Assembly (NCBI GenBank): GCA_019509785.1
Contig: JAEKLQ010000057.1
Coordinates: forward strand, 1-63,085
Origin: Fibrobacterota bacterium
Lineage (GTDB): Bacteria > Fibrobacterota > Fibrobacteria > UBA11236
DNA length: 63,085 bases
Direction: 5' to 3'
The position numbers and the translations under genes were made by a program. Under the pieces are notes generated by a model. That model saw only the letters and a program-made list of their open reading frames with translations, had not been told where the DNA came from and did not search any database. Positions 1 to 13,568 of this stretch are shown here, piece after piece (positions within the stretch are counted from its first letter, which is position 1; every line of letters begins with the position of its first letter).

Positions 1-1099
1 GTATTCGGCGAAATGCATTTTTGGTCTTGCCTCCTATTGCCCCCGAAACACTCCTATGGTGGAATTGGATAAAGTCACCCACTACAGACCATTGGGAAGC
101 TTCCTTGGGCCTGCAACCAGTGGCCAAAAGGAAAATAGCCGTTAGGTAATTGGCCCTAGCCGCTTCGCTCCCTCCGGGTCTAAGTGCCCGGTCCTTTAAG
201 CATTCGAAGAGGGCCAGCACTTGAGGCAAGGGTAATGGATAGTTCCGATGCCCAGAGGTAGGGGCATGGGATTCCATCTTGGAGAGAGTCACCCCGTCCA
301 TGGGATTAAACCCTATCCACCTTTTCCGAGTTGCATAGTGGCACACGTTTCGGAAGTAGGTTAGCTCCTTATTGAGAAGAGATTTTGTATTGGGTTGCCC
401 TTTTGTCCCGCCTAGCTTCCGTGGCTTCCTCCAAGCGATGTACCCTTTCCCGTGGTCGAATTGGCCTAGGGCCTCAATCCCCTGGACTTGGCAATACATG
501 GCCCATAAATCCCCGAACCGATGTAGGGCTTGGACCGTGACTAACTTGACTCTTACCGTTCGATGCTGATGGGCCGGAATGCGGTCTAGGAGATCCGCTA
601 GGGCCTTTATTGGAACCTTGGCCCCCTTTCCTTCCATAAGCGTTCCACGGGTCACTAAGAGGCTTAGAAGGACTTTTATCCGGTCCTCGTTTCCAAGGAA
701 GCTCGGGAAGTACGGGGCATAGTGATCAAGGGCTTGGGTCCGGTTGTATTCGGCAATGGTTTCCCGGACTGTGACGGGCTTAGGCTGTATGGTTGGTACA
801 GGGGCCAAGATTGGCTTTGGGGCTTCCCCTCCTAGTTCGGATAGGTGGTCCGCTAGAACGTCCTTCCAAAGCCTTCTATCCCTTCGTAGCATGGCCTTTA
901 TTACCCGGCCCATCCACTTGGGGGAAATGGCCCTTCTTTGTCCCTCAGTCAGGGACAGGTTAAAGACAAAATCATGGGCCTGTAAGGCGATTGCATGGGC
1001 ACTAGGCTCCTTGGTTCCTATGCCATAGACTAGGGCCTTTCCGATGTACGGCGCGGCCTTGTGGTCTCGTATCCGGTTGAGGTTGAATATTGAAGCCAT
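1..1099 (-). CDS. Tyrosine recombinase / integrase, 3' end cut by window edge
   Basis: An open frame of 366 codons runs without a stop from an ATG at 1099 to the window edge; a GGAAAGG Shine-Dalgarno sits 4 nt before it. The N-terminal half is basic and not recognised. From about residue 242 a helical core-binding segment appears (NKELTYFRNVCHYATRKRW). From about 290 the catalytic domain begins, with the box I pattern LLATGCRPKEAS, where Arg330 would be the first catalytic arginine. The remaining catalytic residues (His-x-x-Arg and the Tyr) lie beyond the edge. Tyrosine recombinases cut and join att sites through a phosphotyrosine link, and this one would integrate or excise the element next to the tRNA fragment. 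The family call rests on box I and overall layout. Confidence 0.78.
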   Translation of the reverse strand, partial: MASIFNLNRIRDHKAAPYIGKALVYGIGTKEPSAHAIALQAHDFVFNLSLTEGQRRAISPKWMGRVIKAMLRRDRRLWKDVLADHLSELGGEAPKPILAPVPTIQPKPVTVRETIAEYNRTQALDHYAPYFPSFLGNEDRIKVLLSLLVTRGTLMEGKGAKVPIKALADLLDRIPAHQHRTVRVKLVTVQALHRFGDLWAMYCQVQGIEALGQFDHGKGYIAWRKPRKLGGTKGQPNTKSLLNKELTYFRNVCHYATRKRWIGFNPMDGVTLSKMESHAPTSGHRNYPLPLPQVLALFECLKDRALRPGGSEAARANYLTAIFLLATGCRPKEASQWSVVGDFIQFHHRSVSGAIGGKTKNAFRRI

Positions 1100-1201
1100 G
1101 GAACCTTTCCAGGTGCCGGAATAGTACCGGCGGGAATAGGATGACCATGGGCCGTATTGGCTTACTTCGGGTTTTCTATGAAGAGGAAGGCGGTTAACCA
1201 G
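1..1201 (-). mobile_element. Integrase end of an integrated element (continues left of window)
   Basis: The stretch runs from the break in a tRNA-Gly gene through a tyrosine-recombinase gene and off the left edge. Its codon use (many CTA, AGG and ATA codons, frequent CCTAGG) and lower GC content differ from the GC-rich chromosomal genes that start at 1426, which suggests transfer. Recombinase gene, tRNA fragment and a composition change together are the usual signature of a genomic island or prophage end. The other end and the cargo are outside the window, so the element type is unknown. Confidence 0.75.
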
Positions 1202-1241
1202 GCTTGGGAAGCAAAAGCTCTACCAACTGAGCTAAATCCGC
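1202..1241 (-). pseudogene. 5' half of tRNA-Gly(CCC), truncated after the anticodon loop (putative att site)
   Basis: Reading the minus strand from 1241 there is a 7-nt acceptor strand GCGGATT, a D-stem GCTC/GAGC with an AGTTGGTA loop, and the anticodon-stem strand TTTGC. Then comes the loop TTCCCAA with anticodon CCC (1206-1208). The partner strand should read GCAAA, but only GC matches before the sequence diverges at 1201. No T-arm (GGTTCRA) or acceptor partner AATCCGC follows. The break falls at the anticodon loop, a known integration spot for tyrosine recombinases, whose arms bind the anticodon-stem inverted repeat. The intact copy, or the displaced 3' half, should lie at the far end of the element. 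Confidence 0.8.
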
Positions 1242-1425: not shown

Positions 1426-1866
1426 ATGGAATCCACTCTCGTCATTATCAAGCCCAACGGCGTTAAAGGCGGCATCATCGGGGAGATCATCTCCCGCTAC
1501 GAGAAGGCGCGCTTGTCCGTTTCGGCGATCCAGATCAAGAGCTTGAGCAAGGCCGAGGCCGAAGGCTTCTATGCCGAGCACAAGGAGAGGGGATTCTTCG
1601 GGGAACTGGTTGGCTTCATGACCTCGGGCCCGGTCGTTCTGCTGGCCCTGTCGGGCGAGAAGGCCGTGGAGAAGGTACGCACCATCAACGGCGCAACCAA
1701 TCCCGCCAATGCCTCCGCGGGCACAATCCGCCACGATTTCGCGCCGAACACCGGCGAAAACATCGTACACTCGTCGGACTCGGCCGTCAGCGCCGCCCGC
1801 GAGATCGCCTATTGGTTCGAAAAGACGGCGATAATCTCGTATCCCGCCTATTCCTACGTGAAGTGA
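1426..1866 (+). CDS. ndk: Nucleoside diphosphate kinase
   Basis: The 146-residue product is a full-length NDK, which transfers the gamma phosphate from ATP to nucleoside diphosphates through a phosphohistidine and so balances the NTP/dNTP pools in the cytoplasm. The start [12 protein letters not shown] is the classic N-terminal strand. The substrate loop [16 protein letters not shown] and the active-site motif NIVHSSDS, with His115 as the phosphorylated residue, are intact. It is the first chromosomal gene after the tRNA/integrase junction and reads away from it. It is followed 39 nt later by a gamma-carbonic-anhydrase-like gene. Confidence 0.95.
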
Positions 1867-4059: not shown

Positions 4060-4903
4060 ACGACCAGGATTCCTGGTCTGCTTTGATCAGCAGTTCCACG
4101 TCATCCGCCACCAGCCCGCGCACCCCGGCCGACAATGCCGCCTTGAACTCCTTCTCCCCATGGATATCCCAGATGAGGAAGGTCCCGGAATCGGGAACAT
4201 CCGGGTCTTGGCGGGTCAGCAGATCGACTTGGGAAGGCCGCACGGGGGCCTGGCGCGCGTTCCGATCGGCCACGTCCCTGCGCTCGCGAATGTAGCGGCG
4301 GAATATGTCCCAGGATACCGAGAAGTGGCGGATGGCCACCGCGGTCTCGGCGTCTTCGCCGGAATGGACTTCGCGGAAGCGCGCATAATCCTCGAAGATG
4401 CCCCCCAGGATCGGGAAGAGCCTTTCCTTCGATATAAAGCGCAAGATGCCGCCATGGAAGCTGGCCATGAAGGTATCGGGATGGGCGCCCGCCGCCTTCG
4501 CCATACGGGCGCATTTCTCGGCCAAGGTCTCGATATAGCCTTGGTTCTTCTCGACCGCCTTCGGGATTTTCAGTTCCAGGTAAAATGGCTTGCGGCCGAA
4601 CTCCGCGAGGAACTGCTCCAAGCTGGGCATGCGGTAAGCCGGGGACGAGGCGCGCCCGGGCTTCCAGCGTAGGGCCATCTTTTGTAGTTCTTCCCAAGTC
4701 AGATCGAAGACGGATTCGCCCCGGCCCGCCAGGCGATGGCAATCGTCATCGTGGAATACCACCGGCACGCCGTCCCGGCTCAGTTGCACGTCGAACTCGA
4801 CCATGTCGCATCCCGCCGCGTAGGCCGCGCGAAACGCCTCCAAGGTGTTTTCCAAATGCGAGTCGTGCCGTCCCCGATGCGCGACCTTCCAGAAATCGCT
4901 CAT
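4046..4903 (-). CDS. Glycerophosphodiester phosphodiesterase
   Basis: The 285-residue TIM-barrel enzyme starts with VAHRGRHDSHLENTLEAF and continues with DMVEFDVQLSRDGVPVVFHDD. These hold the two catalytic histidines and the metal-binding Glu/Asp residues of the GDPD family; YLELKIPK is the usual later strand. It cleaves glycerophosphodiesters to sn-glycerol 3-phosphate and an alcohol. There is no signal peptide, so it is a cytoplasmic, UgpQ-like form. Its ATG overlaps the glpD stop by 4 nt, so its product can feed directly into the enzyme encoded just upstream. Confidence 0.93.
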   Translation of the reverse strand: MSDFWKVAHRGRHDSHLENTLEAFRAAYAAGCDMVEFDVQLSRDGVPVVFHDDDCHRLAGRGESVFDLTWEELQKMALRWKPGRASSPAYRMPSLEQFLAEFGRKPFYLELKIPKAVEKNQGYIETLAEKCARMAKAAGAHPDTFMASFHGGILRFISKERLFPILGGIFEDYARFREVHSGEDAETAVAIRHFSVSWDIFRRYIRERRDVADRNARQAPVRPSQVDLLTRQDPDVPDSGTFLIWDIHGEKEFKAALSAGVRGLVADDVELLIKADQESWSSKTD

Positions 4904-6477
4904 TTTCCGCCGCCCCCCGCCGATGCCGCCGTATGCCGGTTAGCTCGCAGGAAAGCGGGATAATCCGCTTCGATCCCCAAGGCCGAAATTCCGGGAGTGC
5001 GGGTCCTGAAGAAGGCATCCACCCGATCGAGGCACTCGGTCCCGCCGCCCCGGGTGAAATACGCGTCGGTGCGGCGACGCAGGAAATCCTCGGAGGTGCG
5101 GGCCCACTCTTTCTCCGCGGCCCATGCCAGCTCTCCGGTCAGCAGGCCGTAGGGGCCCGGCAGCCTTTCGCGCCGCGCCGCTTCACCGGATACGAATTCG
5201 GCCAGTTCCAGCGCCCGCTTGCCGTAACGGCGCAGCCAAGCCGCGGCCACGGGCTCGTCGGCGAAGGGATAGGCCATTAATCCGCGCCTCACCGCATCGC
5301 GCTCTTGCGTGTCCTTCCACGCCCCGGGAAGTGGCCTCGGCTTGATGTCCTTAATGGATGCCTTTTTACCGAGGATGTGCTTCAGGAAGGCATCGGCGAA
5401 GCTGCGATGGGTCGTGTATTTCCCGCCGACCCCAGAATACACCTTGTCACGCAAGGTATGGAATTCGTGTTCGCGGCTCAGGCCCACGGTGGAACCCTTC
5501 CCGCTACGAGCCAAGGGGCGGATTCCGGTGATGGTGCAGATGATATCGGGTTTCCAATCCGGGAAGTAAGTCGCCGCCAGCCGCAGCAATTCGCCGATCT
5601 CCGCTTCCCGCGGAACGGCGGGCCCGGCGGGGATTTCCTCCAGTTCGGTCTCCGTGGTTCCAATCAGATGCTTCCCCTTCCATGGCACGACGAAGAAATA
5701 GCGTTTGGATCCCGGCACCGGCAGGATGAAGCAGGAGCGCGAGGGCAGCCCGTCCGCGATCAGATGGATGCCTTGGGACAACCGCACCTGGGGAGCGCTG
5801 CCCGGGAAGGCGGAAGCGATGACCTGATCGGTCCAGGGCCCGGCCACGATGGCCACCTGGCGGGCCCGGTGGACGATCTCCTTCCCCGTCAAACGGTCGG
5901 ACACCGTCACTTCCATGCGACCGTCACCTGCGGGTTCCGCCCCCTGGAAAGATTGGTAGTTGCTGATACGGGCGCCCAAGGACGCCGCGTCCGCCAGGTT
6001 TTCCATGACCAGGCGGGCATCGTCCATGACGCAGTCGGTATAGGCGTAGGCGCCGCAATCCTCCCCGGGCAGGAAGGCCGGCTCCAGGCGTCTCAGCTCG
6101 GCGGGCGGCACCCAGCGGTGCGCTTCCAAGCGGCGCCCCGCGGCCAGCAAATCGTACAAGGCCAATCCCGCTTTGATGATGGGGCGGGCGTGCCGGCCCA
6201 AGCGGGTGCTGGGAAAGAAAAAGCGCCGGGCTTCCACCAAGTGGGGCGCCAGGCCGAGCAAGGCGGCGCGCTCGCGCACCGCGTCTTTCACCAGGCCGAA
6301 ATCGTATGTCTCGAGGTAACGCAGGCCGCCATGGAGTAGTTTCGAGGTATTGGTGCTCGCTCCCCGGCCGAAATCCCCGGCTTCGAACAAAGCGGTGGCC
6401 AGGCCGTTGAAAGCGGCTAAGCGGGCCAAGGCAGCGCCATTGATACCGCCCCCTACGATGATCAGATCGTAATCCAA
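4900..6477 (-). CDS. glpD: FAD-dependent glycerol-3-phosphate dehydrogenase
   Basis: The 525-residue protein begins with the FAD-binding motif DLIIVGGGINGAALARLAA. The GlpD signature ASTNTSKLLHGGLRYLE follows, then the substrate-binding core with GTTETELEE and SGVGGKYTTHR, and a C-terminal helical domain, matching the usual length of GlpD/GlpA. It oxidises sn-glycerol 3-phosphate to dihydroxyacetone phosphate at the inner face of the membrane, giving electrons to quinone. With the downstream phosphodiesterase it forms a two-gene operon for salvaging phospholipid head-group breakdown products. Confidence 0.94.
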   Translation of the reverse strand: MDYDLIIVGGGINGAALARLAAFNGLATALFEAGDFGRGASTNTSKLLHGGLRYLETYDFGLVKDAVRERAALLGLAPHLVEARRFFFPSTRLGRHARPIIKAGLALYDLLAAGRRLEAHRWVPPAELRRLEPAFLPGEDCGAYAYTDCVMDDARLVMENLADAASLGARISNYQSFQGAEPAGDGRMEVTVSDRLTGKEIVHRARQVAIVAGPWTDQVIASAFPGSAPQVRLSQGIHLIADGLPSRSCFILPVPGSKRYFFVVPWKGKHLIGTTETELEEIPAGPAVPREAEIGELLRLAATYFPDWKPDIICTITGIRPLARSGKGSTVGLSREHEFHTLRDKVYSGVGGKYTTHRSFADAFLKHILGKKASIKDIKPRPLPGAWKDTQERDAVRRGLMAYPFADEPVAAAWLRRYGKRALELAEFVSGEAARRERLPGPYGLLTGELAWAAEKEWARTSEDFLRRRTDAYFTRGGGTECLDRVDAFFRTRTPGISALGIEADYPAFLRANRHTAASAGGGGK

Positions 6478-6574
6478 GCTGCCTCGATCCCTTTCGCGGA
6501 CATTTTCCTATTTTTCAAGGCGAATTGATTCCTAAATAACACGATTTTCCACTTTCTCACCAGGACAGGAGTCC

Positions 6575-7804
6575 ATGCCCGTTTCCCTCCTCCGCTTCGT
6601 CATTACCGCCCTTTTGGCATGCGCCTGGGTCGGCGCCGCCGATGCGCCCCCAGCCGCGACCCCGACCGCCGCCGCCCCTGCGCCGCAAGCCGCCCCCGCC
6701 TCCAAGGATGCGCCCGCGCCCGTGAGCGCGCCTGTTGCGACGGATGCGGCCCCCGTGGATCCGGCTGCCGCGCCCGCTTCCCCTTCCGCCAATCCCCCCA
6801 AGGCCAAGACCCGCAAAGGCGGCGCGAAGGCTGCCAAAACGGCGAAGGGCCCGGCTTCGATCGTGATCACCGTCGGCCCCAACAAGATCTCGAAGAGCCA
6901 AATCGACACCTTGGCCGATCTGATGATCAACGCCCGTCATCAGGATGGTTCCGCGCCCCAGCGTGGCGAGCGCGAATATATCGCTAAAATGGTGGCCACC
7001 AACCTCATCGGGCAGGATTTGCTCGATCTGGAAGCCAAGCGCCTGAACGTGGTCGCGGATCAGAAATCCCTCGACTCCTTGTCGAGAGCCTTCCGCGCCA
7101 ACTTCCCCAGCGATGAGGCCTATAAGCAGGCCTTACGCTCGGCCGGGGACACCGAAGCGGGCTTGCGCGAGAAGATGGCCCGCCAGATCAAGGCGGACAA
7201 GTTGCTGAACGCGCAGATGAGCCCGATGGAGCGGCCCTCCGAAAAGGAAATGCGGGATTTCTTCGCCGCCCACAAATCGGCCTTCCCCATCAACGATTCC
7301 CTGCGCGCCTGCCAAATCCTGTTCATGGTCGACGCCAATACCAGCGCCGGCGAGGCCGCGAAGAAGAAGAGCGAGCTGGAGTTGATCCGGGCGGATCTGG
7401 CCAAGGATACGGCGCGTATCGATGCGCTCCTCACCCGCTTCGTGATGAAGGCGCGCGAGATTTCCGATGGCCCCGAGAAAAAGGATGGCGGCGATCTGCA
7501 ACGCTTCCTGCCTGGCGATTTCAACCCGGAGTTCAAGAAGCAAGTCACCGCCCTTAAAGTCGGCCAGATGTCGCCGGTGTTCCGCACCCCGCTCGGCTGG
7601 CACCTGGTCGTGCTGACGGAACGGAACGACGGGAAGTTCGAGAGCTACCAACTCCAAATCGCCCGCGCCCTGGTGACCGAGAAGGCTGCCAAGGCGGGTA
7701 AGGACCTGAAGAAATACCTCAAGACCCTGGCGGACCGCTACAAAGTCGCCTTCCTCGACGAGGGATACCGCGACAGCACCGTCGCGGGAGTCTACGAGCA
7801 TTAA
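6575..7804 (+). CDS. Exported parvulin-type peptidyl-prolyl isomerase (SurA/PrsA-like)
   Basis: An AGGAG Shine-Dalgarno precedes the ATG. The 409-residue product has a signal peptide ending near ADA (residue 24). An Ala/Pro-rich, then Lys-rich, linker follows to about residue 95. Next is a SurA N-terminal-type helical domain (about 97-235) and one parvulin domain recognisable by GDLQRFLPGDFNPEFKKQV and TPLGWHLVVLTER. Such proteins chaperone outer-membrane proteins in the periplasm and isomerise X-Pro bonds. The low-complexity linker is unusual and may span cell-wall distance. A membrane Ser/Thr kinase gene follows after 19 nt. Confidence 0.87.
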   Translation: MPVSLLRFVITALLACAWVGAADAPPAATPTAAAPAPQAAPASKDAPAPVSAPVATDAAPVDPAAAPASPSANPPKAKTRKGGAKAAKTAKGPASIVITVGPNKISKSQIDTLADLMINARHQDGSAPQRGEREYIAKMVATNLIGQDLLDLEAKRLNVVADQKSLDSLSRAFRANFPSDEAYKQALRSAGDTEAGLREKMARQIKADKLLNAQMSPMERPSEKEMRDFFAAHKSAFPINDSLRACQILFMVDANTSAGEAAKKKSELELIRADLAKDTARIDALLTRFVMKAREISDGPEKKDGGDLQRFLPGDFNPEFKKQVTALKVGQMSPVFRTPLGWHLVVLTERNDGKFESYQLQIARALVTEKAAKAGKDLKKYLKTLADRYKVAFLDEGYRDSTVAGVYEH

Positions 7805-7823
7805 GGCAGGGTTCGGAGGCCGC

Positions 7824-9881
7824 ATGGAAAGGACCTTGATCGCCCAAGACCAGCTGATCGGCGTGCGCTTCGAGAAGTGCGTGGTGGAAAAGCTGATCGG
7901 CCGCGGCGGTTATGGCCTTTCCTATCTCGCCTTCGACGGGGAGCTGCAAGAACATCGCGTCATCAAGGTCTCCCAGGATTCGGGCCTGGACGAAGCGACG
8001 CGCCGCCGCCACCTCAAGACCTTCCTGGAGGAAGGCCTCATCCTCAGCCGCCTCAAGCATCCGCAGATCGTGACCCTGCGCGGTCAGGGGGACAAGCACG
8101 GCCATCGCTACATGATCCTGGATTACATCCAGGGCTATAGCCTCCGCGCCATCCTCGATGCCGTGGGGCAGCGCCAAGTCGCCCTCGGGTGCGCTTGGCA
8201 GGACCTGATGGATCCCATCACCGCATCGGCCCTGATCCTTTCGGCCCTCTATCCGCTGGAGTACGCCCACCGCGCCAACGTGCATCTTCCCGATCGAGAG
8301 ATCTTCGGCGTGGCCCATCGGGACATCTCCCCCGGGAACCTGATCCTGGGCGTGAAGGGGAACGAGAAAGGGCGCCTGGTGCTTATCGATTTCGGCACGG
8401 CCAAAACGGCCCTGAACGAGAACGTCACCGTCGATCAGAACCTGGTCGGAACCATTCCCTATATGGGGAAGGCGCGACTGCAGAAGGCCAACTCGCCGGA
8501 AGAGCGCGCGCTGCACCAGGAGTTCTGGAAGGACTTCCGCGAGACCCAGCACGACATCCACGCCATCGGCGTGCTCTACTACCAACTGCTCACGGGCCGG
8601 CTCCCGTTCTACGGCGAGACGACGCCGCAAATCATCGTCAAGATCCTGGATCGCGAAGCCTACACCCAGTGCCACCTGGACATCGCTTCCGCGCATCCCT
8701 ATGCTTCCGGGGTCTTGAGGAAATGCCTGGCCTGGAACGATTTCAATCTCCCCCTTTCCGAGCAGGAATACCAGTACCCGGACGCGGCCGCCATGCGCCC
8801 CGAGATGGAAGAGGTCTTCCATTCCCTCTCTGGAGGCAGATCTGTTAACGACGTTCTCATCGCATTGGGCAAGCGCATGGCCCATCCGGAAGCCCTGGCC
8901 CCCGCGGAGGAAGGCGCCAAGGCCAAGAGCGGAACGGCCTCCACGGGATCGCTGTCCATGCCCGTGGTCCCGCAGCGCACTTCCGAAATGTTGCGCGCCC
9001 TGCCTTATCCGGTGAAGAAGCGCTCGCCTTGGCCCTACTTCGCCTTGGGCGCGGGATTATTGGTGATCGCCCTGGGGGCCGCATGGCGCTTCGCCCCCAG
9101 GCACTCCGACCTTTTCGCAAGGGCCAAGTCGGAACCCGGTCCATCCACGCACTCGTCCCCCCTTCCCGCATCCGCCCAACCCGTCACCGCGGTTCCGGCC
9201 TCCGGCACGCGAGCACCCGCCGCGCCGGCCGCGCGCCCCCTTCCCGCGCCTCGCGAAATCCTGGAGAACCTGGGCTCCGCGAAAGCGGCATCCCATCCGG
9301 ATAAATCTTCCCGCCCCGCTCCGGCCTCCGCGAAACCCTCCTCCCGCCCGAACCCGGCAACCAAGGCCGCCCGCCCTGGCGGGAATTCCACCCTAACCCC
9401 GAATGCGGGCCGGGTCTCCCCGGGGGACGTCGCTCCCGAGGTCCCGCAGGTTGCCCCTTCCTCCGAAACCTCCGGGGAATTCGCCAAGGAGGAATTCGTG
9501 CAGGCTCAGACCCTGGTTCGCGAAGAGGATCCTTCCGCGTTCGAGCACATTAACGCCTTGTTGGCCAGGCATCCGGGATCGCCGGATCTCCGCCTGCTGA
9601 AATCCCAGGTGATTTTGCTGCGCAACCCCTCTTCGGCCGAGGCTCGCGGAGAGCTGTCGGCCTTGCAATCCGCACGGCCGGAATTCATGCATCCCGGCCT
9701 GTTCCATGAACAGTCGCTCTACCTCCTCTGGCAAGCGGATGCCGCCGCCTTCGAGGCCCAAAAAACCCCGGAGAACCGGGTCAGGCTGCTCAAATCCGCC
9801 AATGCTTACCTCTCCGAATACGGTTCGCTTCCCGCCTACCAGTCCAAGGTACAGGGAATCAAGGACCGCCTTCCGCGCTGA
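7824..9881 (+). CDS. Membrane-anchored Ser/Thr protein kinase with extracytoplasmic domain
   Basis: The 685-residue protein has an N-terminal kinase domain (about 18-340). Visible elements are the glycine loop GRGGYGLSY, the lysine in RVIKVS, the helix-C Glu in FLEEGLILSRL, the catalytic loop HRDISPGNLIL and the metal-binding DFG in IDFGTAK. HRDIS replaces the usual HRDLK, as seen in some bacterial kinases, and a canonical APE is not evident. A single membrane segment lies near residues 404-424. A Pro/Ala/Ser-rich stretch follows, then a helical, TPR-like C-terminal domain (about 545-685). The substrate is unknown. It probably shares a transcript with the upstream PPIase gene. Confidence 0.88.
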   Translation: MERTLIAQDQLIGVRFEKCVVEKLIGRGGYGLSYLAFDGELQEHRVIKVSQDSGLDEATRRRHLKTFLEEGLILSRLKHPQIVTLRGQGDKHGHRYMILDYIQGYSLRAILDAVGQRQVALGCAWQDLMDPITASALILSALYPLEYAHRANVHLPDREIFGVAHRDISPGNLILGVKGNEKGRLVLIDFGTAKTALNENVTVDQNLVGTIPYMGKARLQKANSPEERALHQEFWKDFRETQHDIHAIGVLYYQLLTGRLPFYGETTPQIIVKILDREAYTQCHLDIASAHPYASGVLRKCLAWNDFNLPLSEQEYQYPDAAAMRPEMEEVFHSLSGGRSVNDVLIALGKRMAHPEALAPAEEGAKAKSGTASTGSLSMPVVPQRTSEMLRALPYPVKKRSPWPYFALGAGLLVIALGAAWRFAPRHSDLFARAKSEPGPSTHSSPLPASAQPVTAVPASGTRAPAAPAARPLPAPREILENLGSAKAASHPDKSSRPAPASAKPSSRPNPATKAARPGGNSTLTPNAGRVSPGDVAPEVPQVAPSSETSGEFAKEEFVQAQTLVREEDPSAFEHINALLARHPGSPDLRLLKSQVILLRNPSSAEARGELSALQSARPEFMHPGLFHEQSLYLLWQADAAAFEAQKTPENRVRLLKSANAYLSEYGSLPAYQSKVQGIKDRLPR

Positions 9882-9914
9882 ATCCGGCATTTGCGGAATA
9901 CCGGCCTCGAACCT

Positions 9915-9942
9915 TTGAATTTCCAAGCGGTTTTGATAAATT
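9915..9942 (+). promoter_or_regulatory. Probable promoter of rplU-rpmA
   Basis: TTGAAT (9915-9920) and TAAATT (9937-9942) are separated by 16 nt, in the gap after the kinase gene and 70 nt before the rplU start. This fits a housekeeping sigma-70-type promoter for the ribosomal protein pair. It is judged by eye only. Confidence 0.42.
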
Positions 9943-10012
9943 AATGCGCCCGTTCGTATTGGCCCTGCCAGTACGGCGCCGGTTTCATTCAGAAGAGAGA
10001 TAAAGGACTGCC

Positions 10013-10456
10013 ATGTACTCTGTCATCGAATGCGGTGGATTCCAACATAAAGTCACCGTCGGGGAAACCCTGAAGCTTCCCAAAATGGACGTCAAGGTGG
10101 GCGACGTCGTCACCGTGTCCAACGTCCTCCTCTTCGCCGACGGCGGCACCATCCAGGTCGGCGCTCCGCTCGTTTCCGGCGCGGCCGTAACGCTTGAGGT
10201 CCTCAACCAGGGCAAGGCCGACAAGGTCATCTCCTTCAAGCGCAAGCAGCGGAAGCGCTACCGCCGCACCGTCGGCCATCGCCAACAGTTCACCGAAGTT
10301 CTCGTGACCGGGATCGCATCCGGCTCCGCCAAGGCCAACGTCGATGAGAAGGCCAAGATCCGCGCCCGGGCCCGCATCACGGCCCTCGAAGCGCGCAAGG
10401 TCCAGCAACCGAAGGTAACCCGCGCGCAAAAGATCGCCGCGGCCCAAGCCAAGTAA
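10013..10456 (+). CDS. rplU: 50S ribosomal protein L21 with C-terminal extension
   Basis: An AAGGA Shine-Dalgarno lies just before the ATG. The first ~102 residues are a normal L21: MYSVIECGGFQHKV, VTLEVLNQGKADKV, FKRKQRKRYRR and TVGHRQQFTEVLVTGI. L21 binds 23S rRNA in the large subunit. The protein is 147 residues rather than about 103, because a basic Ala/Lys-rich tail is added, possibly for extra rRNA contact. rpmA follows 33 nt later, the universal rplU-rpmA order. Confidence 0.97.
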   Translation: MYSVIECGGFQHKVTVGETLKLPKMDVKVGDVVTVSNVLLFADGGTIQVGAPLVSGAAVTLEVLNQGKADKVISFKRKQRKRYRRTVGHRQQFTEVLVTGIASGSAKANVDEKAKIRARARITALEARKVQQPKVTRAQKIAAAQAK

Positions 10457-10489
10457 GCATTAGCCAGGGAAGATAAGGGAAAACATCAC

Positions 10490-10768
10490 ATGGCACATAA
10501 AAAAGGTCTAGGCAGCACTCGTAACGGCCGCGATTCCAATCCGAAGTACCGTGGCGTGAAAAAGTTCGGCGGCGAAACCGTCATCCCCGGGAACATCATC
10601 CTTCGCCAGAAGGGGACCCGCTGGCATCCGGGCCATAACGTCGGCATCGGCAGGGACTTCACCATCTACTCCCTGATCGAGGGCCAGGTGAAGTTCGAGC
10701 GCTACGGGAAAGATCGCCAGAAGGTCAGCGTCTATCCTGCGGTCGCCGTAGCGGCCGCCGCGGCCTAA
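10490..10768 (+). CDS. rpmA: 50S ribosomal protein L27
   Basis: The 92-residue product begins [19 protein letters not shown] and contains the conserved [23 protein letters not shown]27 sits close to the peptidyl-transferase centre of the 50S subunit, where its N-terminus helps place the tRNA 3' ends. No N-terminal Firmicutes-type cleavage extension is present. An intrinsic terminator follows within 30 nt, closing the two-gene operon. Confidence 0.97.
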
Positions 10769-10797
10769 TCCACAGGCTCCCCAAACATCTCTACGTG

Positions 10798-10826
10798 AAA
10801 AGGCTTCCTTCCGGAAGCCTTTTTTC
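10798..10826 (+). terminator. Rho-independent terminator of rplU-rpmA
   Basis: AAAAGGCTTCC pairs with GGAAGCCTTTT around a 4-nt loop, and a T-run follows. It is 29 nt after the rpmA stop. The A-run on its left side could also let it work in the other direction. Confidence 0.9.
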
Positions 10827-10870
10827 ATTCCTTTCCGGAATGGCTGCCGCTTTCCGGGATCCCCATTCTT

Positions 10871-10876
10871 TATATC
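10871..10876 (+). promoter_or_regulatory. -10 box for the FGE-domain lipoprotein (near-leaderless)
   Basis: TATATC lies 10 nt before the ATG at 10887, and no Shine-Dalgarno is visible between them. Transcription would begin only a few bases before the start codon. No convincing -35 box was found. Confidence 0.4.
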
Positions 10877-10886
10877 TTACTCGGCG

Positions 10887-13568
10887 ATGCGCCTAGGCTT
10901 TAAATGCATTGCCTCGTTCGGCTTGGGCGCCTTGCTATTGAGCTGCACCTCCGAGCCCAGCGGAGTAAATCTGGACATCTTCCGCAGCCCTAGCCTATTC
11001 CGCGCCGATACCACGGCCTCCGATCATCCCTTCTGCGATCAAACCAACCCCGTCGGTACCCCCGCTGCCTGTAAACAAGAGCATAAGTACAAGCTGACCT
11101 GGTTGCGGCCGGAAGATACCGCGAACTTCCAGGGTTACCGCATCTATTTCGACACCGTCCCCGATGACAAGAAGTGGGCGGATGTCCAGAAACATCCCGA
11201 ATTGGCCTCGGTCATCGTCCACCGCTCTCCGGTGAATGACAGCCTGGTTTTCGTCTTCACTAGCGACCGCAAAACCCTTCCCGATACCTTGCTCCCGGGC
11301 CAGGATCGAATCGTGGCGCTCGATAGCAACGGCCGCGCGGAGCTCAGCACGGGAAAACTGGTTTTCGCCCTGGTCCCGGTGTATAGCGGGAGCGGAGCCC
11401 AAGGCCAGCCTCAGTACGCGTACTTCGTCACTACGGATCGTCAGGCTCCGGACGTGTTCCGTCCGGATATCCGGCCTCTGCCCCACGGTCTCCGCATCGC
11501 TTGGGAGCGGCCCACCGATCGGGTGAGTTTCTTCGACCCCGGCTTGGATACGGGAGTCATCAAGGGGTACCGCCTGGAGTTGGGCTTGGACGGACGCATA
11601 ACCGCCAATCGCCTGAATAGCTTCCAGCCTAAGCTCAAATCCTATCGCATGGGCGGCTCGGATAGTACGGCGGCCGTTCTGGATAGCCTGGAGCTCAAGA
11701 ATGGCGTCCCCGACAAGATGCTCTTCAAACTCCCGGACGGCCATCGCTCGGCCAAACACACGCATCCCGATGCCACCGACAGCATGTACGTGGAGATCGA
11801 GGGTATGTTCCCGCAGGATACCCTGACCGTGCAGCTTTGGGCCATCGATAGCGCGGGCAATTCCAATGACAGCGCGATGTCGCCGGTCTCCATACGCACG
11901 ACCGATACCACCCAGCCTTCGACGCCCAAGCTCGGTTTCGACTCCCTTTCGCTGAACGGTTTCACCATTACATGGTTGGCCGCGCGGGATTCCGTGGCCG
12001 GCCCCGGCGGCCTGACGGAGGCCGATCACCCCAACGCGAACATCATGGATTACCGGCTGACCCGCACCATGGTCCGGGCGCCCGGCGAGCGGACCACCAG
12101 CCTGGACCGGATGGACACCATAGTTCAGGATTCCTTGGTCCCGACGCGATCGCAGTTCCGCATCCCGGTCCGGTTCCTACCGCCGGGCGCGACCTATCAT
12201 ATGACCTTGTTCGCCGAAGACAGTTCGGGTTATCCTTCGCAGATCGATACCATGAACGTTACCACCCCGAAGGTCGCCTTCGCCGATACCGACAGCGTAC
12301 TCACTTGTCCGCCGGGATTCATCCCTATGCCGCGCGGGAAATTCCAGCTGGGTTCGAACGCTTTCCCGGGTTCGGACGAAACGCCCCCGCGCATCGCGGC
12401 CATGGCGCCCTACTGCATCGAACCCTACGAGCATCGCGACTCCACCGGGCAACGCTTCGTCTCCAACGTGACCTACGAACAAGCCGAAGCCATCTGCGAA
12501 GCCATCAGTCCCGAATTCGCGACCAAGCTTTGCAGCGAAGCGGAATGGGAACGCGCTTGCGAAGGGCCCACCGCCGACTCGGCCTTGGCCCTGCGCCACG
12601 GGATCCAATCCGAGACCAATGATCCTTCCATTTTGCAGGCCAGTTGCAATCAGGCCACCAATGATTCGGATATGGCCTTCAATTTCTCCTTGCGCAATCC
12701 CATCTGCCTCACCACCGAAGGAGTATACGACATGGCCGGCAATTTGTCCGAGTGGGTGCGGGATACGTATTTCCCGAACGCTTACAATAGCTTATCTGGG
12801 GACACCTTGCGCCTGGATCACGGCACCGTCTTCGCGGACTCGGGAGAACGCCCGCCGCACTCCCTGCGCGGCGGCAATTACCTGAAACCCGACCGCCTGC
12901 AATTATCGGCCGTGCAAAACCTGGCGCGCTGCTCCAATCGGGATTTCCCGGAACAAGTACGGCCCGTGTACCGGGACAGTTGCCTCAGCGAGGATAAGCC
13001 CAGGCTCGTGGTGATCTTCGGCACGGGATTGGATGGGCACCGCTGCTTTACACCGAAGGATGTTTTCCTGGACCCGGACGTTACGGACTTGCGCCCGGCG
13101 CCCCGCATAGATACGGCCATCCTGGCATTCCATCGCGGCTCCACGAAAGTGGACACGCAACGCTTTAGCCCGGACTCCACCTTCCGTGGGAAAAAACCCA
13201 CCTCGGCGAAACTCACGACCAAGACCCTCGCGGTCGTCAAGTTCGAGAGGATCTTGCCTATCTCCGCGCAGGACAGCGTTTACGACGATACCTTGGACGC
13301 CACCGAATTCCTGGACACGACGCAGGCGGGTTTGGCGAAAATCTTCCAGCGGGAGGCTTCGAACTCCGAATGGACGGTCCATAAGGAAGACGGAAAGTTC
13401 GCGATCAAATATCTCTACGCGTACACGCAATTGGGAAGCAAGCCTGCCCTGCCCTACTACTCCAATCGCGCCATCGGATTCCGTTGCTGTAGCTTGGCGG
13501 CCAAAAAAGTTGTTCCTACCGATTCCGTCGCCGGCCCCTCAGCGATGAGCGCAGCACTTCATCGATGA
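10887..13568 (+). CDS. Lipoprotein with fibronectin-III-like region and FGE-sulfatase (SUMF1) domain
   Basis: The 893-residue protein has a lipoprotein signal ending LLLSC (Cys20). Residues ~65-470 hold two or three fibronectin-III-like beta domains, with phrases such as YRIYFDTVP and LTVQLWAIDSAGNSN. From about 473 (CPPGFIPMPRGKFQLGS) to GFRCCS near 865 there is a formylglycine-generating-enzyme-type domain. Its hallmarks are LCSEAEWERACEG, YDMAGNLSEWVRD and LRGGNYL. True FGE oxidises a Cys in sulfatases. Many FGE-fold proteins are instead ligand-binding or structural, and I cannot confirm the catalytic Cys pair. It lies on the cell surface or periplasmic face. Its 3' end overlaps mutY's end by 10 nt. 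Confidence 0.82.
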   Translation: MRLGFKCIASFGLGALLLSCTSEPSGVNLDIFRSPSLFRADTTASDHPFCDQTNPVGTPAACKQEHKYKLTWLRPEDTANFQGYRIYFDTVPDDKKWADVQKHPELASVIVHRSPVNDSLVFVFTSDRKTLPDTLLPGQDRIVALDSNGRAELSTGKLVFALVPVYSGSGAQGQPQYAYFVTTDRQAPDVFRPDIRPLPHGLRIAWERPTDRVSFFDPGLDTGVIKGYRLELGLDGRITANRLNSFQPKLKSYRMGGSDSTAAVLDSLELKNGVPDKMLFKLPDGHRSAKHTHPDATDSMYVEIEGMFPQDTLTVQLWAIDSAGNSNDSAMSPVSIRTTDTTQPSTPKLGFDSLSLNGFTITWLAARDSVAGPGGLTEADHPNANIMDYRLTRTMVRAPGERTTSLDRMDTIVQDSLVPTRSQFRIPVRFLPPGATYHMTLFAEDSSGYPSQIDTMNVTTPKVAFADTDSVLTCPPGFIPMPRGKFQLGSNAFPGSDETPPRIAAMAPYCIEPYEHRDSTGQRFVSNVTYEQAEAICEAISPEFATKLCSEAEWERACEGPTADSALALRHGIQSETNDPSILQASCNQATNDSDMAFNFSLRNPICLTTEGVYDMAGNLSEWVRDTYFPNAYNSLSGDTLRLDHGTVFADSGERPPHSLRGGNYLKPDRLQLSAVQNLARCSNRDFPEQVRPVYRDSCLSEDKPRLVVIFGTGLDGHRCFTPKDVFLDPDVTDLRPAPRIDTAILAFHRGSTKVDTQRFSPDSTFRGKKPTSAKLTTKTLAVVKFERILPISAQDSVYDDTLDATEFLDTTQAGLAKIFQREASNSEWTVHKEDGKFAIKYLYAYTQLGSKPALPYYSNRAIGFRCCSLAAKKVVPTDSVAGPSAMSAALHR

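Follow-up and report, generated by a model that had tools for sequence, protein, structure and literature searches.

The arrangement termed 'reversed target gene orientation', in which the 5' fragment of the target gene is displaced, reportedly has its primary description in the work of Zhao and Williams in 2002. In the Islander collection, 159 islands carry a 5' fragment versus 3760 with a 3' fragment (3919 in total), and 2083 sites are anticodon-centred (PMC4383910). A survey of thaumarchaeal elements also found 5' recombination to be considerably rarer (PMC6563490), and the pTN3-like archaeal integrases recombine with the 5' half as the shared part (PMC8371274). The integrative elements ICEKp1, ICEclc and ICEEc1 have their int genes driven by the host tRNA promoter when integrated and by a promoter at the element end when excised (PMC13023037). 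Finally, in tRNA-dependent lysogeny the tRNA gene is rebuilt at neither junction, a complete tRNA being supplied by the phage (PMC10865867).

We analysed a window of 63,085 nt that comprises the entire contig C57 of a 5.4-Mb Fibrobacterota draft genome in 106 contigs (G000), with base 1 being a true contig end. With a probability of about 0.88, we consider that an element with a tyrosine-type integrase has inserted in reversed orientation in the anticodon loop of the tRNA-Gly(CCC) gene, which was rebuilt at the far junction. The element thereby joins 5'-fragment displacement, a rarer but established configuration. As in other reversed tRNA-gene islands, the crossover lies within the tRNA gene, the 5' fragment is displaced upstream, and the far end is rebuilt by an element-borne 5' part. 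Less common features are a shared block as long as 109 bp that includes the entire promoter-like region, an integrase without near relatives, and the reuse of one gene in both orientations, the insertions in the same gene of congeners being in the usual one.

Read directly, positions 1241 to 1202 of the reverse strand are the first 40 nt of tRNA-Gly(CCC) (GCGGATTTAGCTCAGTTGGTAGAGCTTTTGCTTCCCAAGC), comprising the 5' strand of the acceptor, the D arm, the 5' strand of the anticodon stem, the loop TTCCCAA (1210-1204) and the bases GC. After 1202 the sequence is no longer tRNA-like and continues CTGGTTAACC, which places the break 2 nt past the anticodon loop. ARAGORN called no tRNA at 1241-1202; its only calls in the window are two tRNAs elsewhere. 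The break at 1201/1202 is judged not to be a chance feature because the displaced half (1202-1241, reverse strand) matches the 5' half of tRNA-Gly(CCC) in three congeners at 40/40 positions and belongs to a 109-bp perfect repeat. The putative crossover core CTTCCCAAGC (1202-1211, reverse strand), within which we infer the exact strand-exchange points, corresponds to the anticodon loop and its closing pairs and is common to the insertions found in the same gene of congeners. Positions 1 to 1201 form the integrase-side end of the element, with a GC content of 0.531 versus 0.628 outside, and the native chromosomal neighbour on the other side is ndk (nucleoside diphosphate kinase, 1426-1866, forward strand). 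The first-pass annotation had described a tRNA that reads correctly through TTCCCAA and breaks 2 nt later, with a recombinase gene starting 102 nt further on the same strand and a promoter kept on the tRNA side. The direct reading agrees with the first point, and the gene was found as a partial open reading frame (1099-2, reverse strand). The promoter corresponds to a promoter-like site, TTTCCA-17-TATATT, at 1299-1271 of the reverse strand, by consensus match only; this site now points at the integrase gene.

The second junction was found on another contig of the same genome, C43, which harbors an intact tRNA-Gly(CCC) gene with an encoded CCA at 1047-1122. A 109-bp perfect direct repeat relates the two contigs (window 1310-1202 of the reverse strand, C43:978-1086); it begins with the 69 bp that precede the tRNA and goes on through the tRNA 5' half to 2 bases past the anticodon loop, and the copy at 1202-1310 would be that of the host, at the integrase-side junction. 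Past the anticodon-loop end of the repeat, C57 enters the integrase-side DNA and C43 enters the tRNA 3' half and terminator. Past its upstream end, C57 runs on into the region upstream of ndk, and C43 passes into unrelated DNA. On the inner sides, GC contents are 0.531 (C57) and 0.518 (C43) and CGCG is depleted, whereas the outer sides (0.628 and 0.617) are host-like; by composition, the inner sides are low-GC foreign DNA and the outer sides are native. The element is bounded by an intact tRNA gene (C43:1047-1122) and its cognate fragment (window 1241-1202). By synteny with congeners G004 and G002, the displaced fragment, which is the 5' part, lies upstream of the intact gene and points the same way, and the integrase-like gene adjoins this fragment. 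The two junctions and their repeat, the intact tRNA and the native flanks are directly observed; that C57 and C43 represent opposite ends of a single element is probable from the repeat, the composition and the synteny, the fragment, the integrase gene and the intact tRNA gene being spread over more than any single assembled contig.

The intact copy bears directly on the fate of the gene. Among the loci scanned, there is one intact tRNA-Gly gene each for the anticodons CCC (C43), TCC (C67) and GCC (C29). Taken alone, the window junction shows a broken gene, and a true loss could be covered by wobble reading by tRNA-Gly(TCC), which is present, or by a whole tRNA gene borne by the element, as in the tRNA-dependent lysogeny of actinobacteriophages (PMC10865867). 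However, at the other junction tRNA-Gly(CCC) is intact, with the host 3' half and a native-type terminator, and is joined through the 109-bp repeat; the loss of the tRNA is therefore rejected as hardly credible. Like those phages, the element integrates at a tRNA gene and leaves it broken at a junction; their lysogeny is marked by the lack of a functional tRNA rebuilt at either junction, and here one junction, with its intact gene on C43, does rebuild it (PMC10865867). The first-pass annotation was thus right that the element splits the gene at the anticodon loop without rebuilding it on the window side, and the alternative that it offered, with the other junction carrying an intact copy, is borne out. 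The CCC and TCC genes that it had proposed to count are both present and intact. Its suggestion that the loss is tolerated through wobble falls, since the intact CCC gene makes wobble unneeded. The 3' half that it expected to the left does exist, on C43, but begins GCAAAGGG rather than GCAAAA, and the predicted direct repeat is likewise on the other contig and measures 109 bp instead of 7. A broken tRNA gene at a contig end should not be read as evidence of tRNA loss.

Both contigs stop about 1.0-1.2 kb into the foreign DNA, and the assembly lacks the element core between them, along with its cargo and the catalytic end of the integrase. Neither the initial 16 bases of C57 nor the initial 18 of C43 occur elsewhere in the assembly, and neither end continues into another contig. 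Such ends, in a draft of 106 contigs whose congeners are MAGs, would also fit a misjoin at 1201/1202 or a mixture of strains, with C43 from one and C57 from another. We regard this as very unlikely, since the break coincides precisely with the anticodon loop, as in the congeners, an integrase-like gene stands at the expected place, the inner sides of both contigs share the same foreign composition, and the repeat is internal rather than located at contig ends.

Insertion in reversed orientation would account for this arrangement as follows. An integrative element (a genomic island or a plasmid- or phage-like element) with a tyrosine-type integrase would have recombined into the tRNA-Gly(CCC) gene of the chromosome, which has ndk on one side and the C43 genes on the other, strand exchange by the integrase taking place in the core CTTCCCAAGC. 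At the integrase side, the host promoter and 5' half would be left stranded, cut from the rest of the gene. At the far side, the element-borne promoter and 5' half (109 bp) would join the host 3' half and terminator into a complete tRNA-Gly(CCC). The rebuilt gene would lie at the far end, with the host 5' half stranded by the integrase, because the element carried a promoter and a 5' half and not a 3' half. By supplying this front half with its promoter instead of the usual back half, an element can halve a tRNA gene without harm to its host, which is an uncommon but known way of inserting.

We compared the locus with five congeners (G001-G005), whose named records are MAGs of Fibrobacteres/Fibrobacteria. 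In the congeners, ndk adjoins tRNA-Gly(CCC). G002 has an empty site, with the promoter, the tRNA and a terminator that resembles the one after the C43 tRNA (AAGCCCCTTCGG...GGAGGGGCTTTTT). In G004, a single contig comprises the ndk side and an intact tRNA, followed by a 6.2-kb insert that encodes a tyrosine integrase, a displaced 3' half and its native-type terminator, and then DNA syntenic to C43. From these two layouts, the order ndk, tRNA-Gly(CCC), C43 chromosome is ancestral, with the insertion in the window genome exactly in the anticodon loop. Three of the five congeners harbor an insertion in the usual orientation, in which the intact tRNA retains its own promoter and the 3' half is displaced: G004 (C88:84902-91262, or 4902-11262 of locus L071; 53-bp repeat), G003 (on two contigs, C33 and C16; 48-bp repeat) and G001 (on two contigs, C101 and C146; an exact match of 35 bp, beyond which one or more mismatches occur on the 5' side). 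The 5' half is displaced only in the window genome. By these insertions, the tRNA-Gly(CCC) gene is a hotspot used repeatedly and in both orientations, and within the genus it provides a small natural series in which to study how the orientation of integration is fixed. The integrases near the displaced fragment in G004 and G003 are related to each other (48% over 75 aa); we detected no relatedness of either to the window integrase, and no integrase on the short G001 contig. The 5.2 kb between ndk and the tRNA in G005 was considered as a second reversed insertion and not counted, as no displaced fragment was detected and its genes appear host-like.

The putative, tyrosine-recombinase-like integrase gene (2-1099, reverse strand) is partial, with 366 codons that remain open at the contig end before the HxxR and Tyr region, and its ATG is 102 nt from the tRNA break. 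Residues 223-335 match phrog_1 (E=3.1e-8), and this family match falls in the catalytic domain; the Pfam and NCBIfam models gave no integrase match. By eye, we noted a box-I-like ATGCRPKEASQW with an arginine, followed by a lysine. It is probably the enzyme that made the insertion. No relatives were found in collections of genome contigs, viral contigs, phages or plasmids, and solved structures yielded no credible match. A single-sequence structure prediction reached a pLDDT of 39.8 and was discarded. Exact att-junction patterns were sought in viral contigs without a hit, and a search for arm-type sites gave no shared words longer than 8. The only relative found in the phylum is a relic in one of 166 other genomes (G004:C41); its first 87 residues show 53% identity. 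This relic begins about 115 nt from a displaced tRNA-Thr(CGT) 3' half cut at the anticodon loop, within an element of about 5.8 kb in usual orientation (locus L077, 3073-8960). The repeat there spans 52 bp, from the anticodon loop to past the tRNA-Thr 3' end, and the intact tRNA-Thr lies 5.8 kb away. The window integrase and this one relic seem to share a layout, with the integrase start by the displaced half and a crossover in the anticodon loop, in opposite orientations to the tRNA, a likeness that is suggestive only.

As a candidate continuation of the integrase gene, contig C58 was rejected: it starts with an integrase C-terminus, but by eye this has an integron-type look and lies in CG-rich, host-like DNA. 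Contig C58 thus opens inside an integrase gene, with an integron-like C-terminal fragment at G000:C58:1-200 (locus L109).

The origin of the 109-bp block was considered from its upstream part. Over the 69 bp upstream of the tRNA, congeners are 0.59-0.72 identical to the window genome, where shuffled sequences average 0.57-0.58, and the two copies within the window genome are identical. Because its own copies are identical while this upstream DNA differs between congeners, the block of the element may have come recently from the same or a very near species, or recombination may have made the copies alike. The block could plausibly have arisen when host DNA was captured in an imprecise excision. 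It is rather doubtful that a recent capture of this kind in this species, by imprecise excision or another illegitimate event, is all that happened, with a one-off and perhaps immobile element rather than a reversed-orientation lineage. The full identity of the block, including upstream DNA that differs between congeners, and the usual orientation of the nearest integrase relative would agree with it. However, both block ends are sharp and the inner end is the crossover core, as site-specific recombination predicts, and reversed islands with 5' fragments form a regular minority elsewhere (PMC4383910). A past capture would moreover be compatible with an element that works at present.

The site TTTCCA-17-TATATT is the only promoter-like site found in each of the C57 and C43 regions, and on this predicted promoter the rebuilt tRNA-Gly(CCC) at C43 appears complete and promoted. 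Between the stranded copy of the site and the integrase gene there is no convincing terminator, the one same-strand hit being the tRNA D arm. The stranded host promoter, on the same strand and 102 nt away, may now transcribe the integrase gene. After excision, the copy borne by the element would occupy the same position ahead of this gene in the circle, so that one promoter would be used in both states. A similar case is that of ICEKp1, ICEclc and ICEEc1, in which the integrase gene lies directly downstream of the host tRNA promoter on the same strand and its promoter situation shifts with the state of integration, but their tRNA is intact at the int side, with the 3' half shared, and their excised form uses another promoter (PMC13023037). 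In the present element, it is at the int side that the tRNA is broken, and the integrated and excised states would each rely on a copy of a single promoter. As with the pTN3-like integrases, the 5' half is shared and the rebuilt tRNA stands on an element-brought promoter tied to the integrase gene; those are archaeal and suicidal, with an integrase gene split by integration, whereas the start of the present integrase gene is undamaged and lies 102 nt from the site. Tentatively, this orphan integrase family might thus use one tRNA promoter for three jobs, the element copy driving the rebuilt tRNA when integrated and the integrase when circular, and the stranded host copy driving the integrase when integrated, and might insert in either orientation to a tRNA gene, with the 5' or the 3' half displaced.

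Inside the far end of the element, C43:554-694 (locus L034) is 82-85% identical to G000:C48:24996-25164 and matches each of the congeners more weakly. Inspected by eye, it looks like the beginning of a fabV-type enoyl reductase gene, broken, and may be a captured host fragment.
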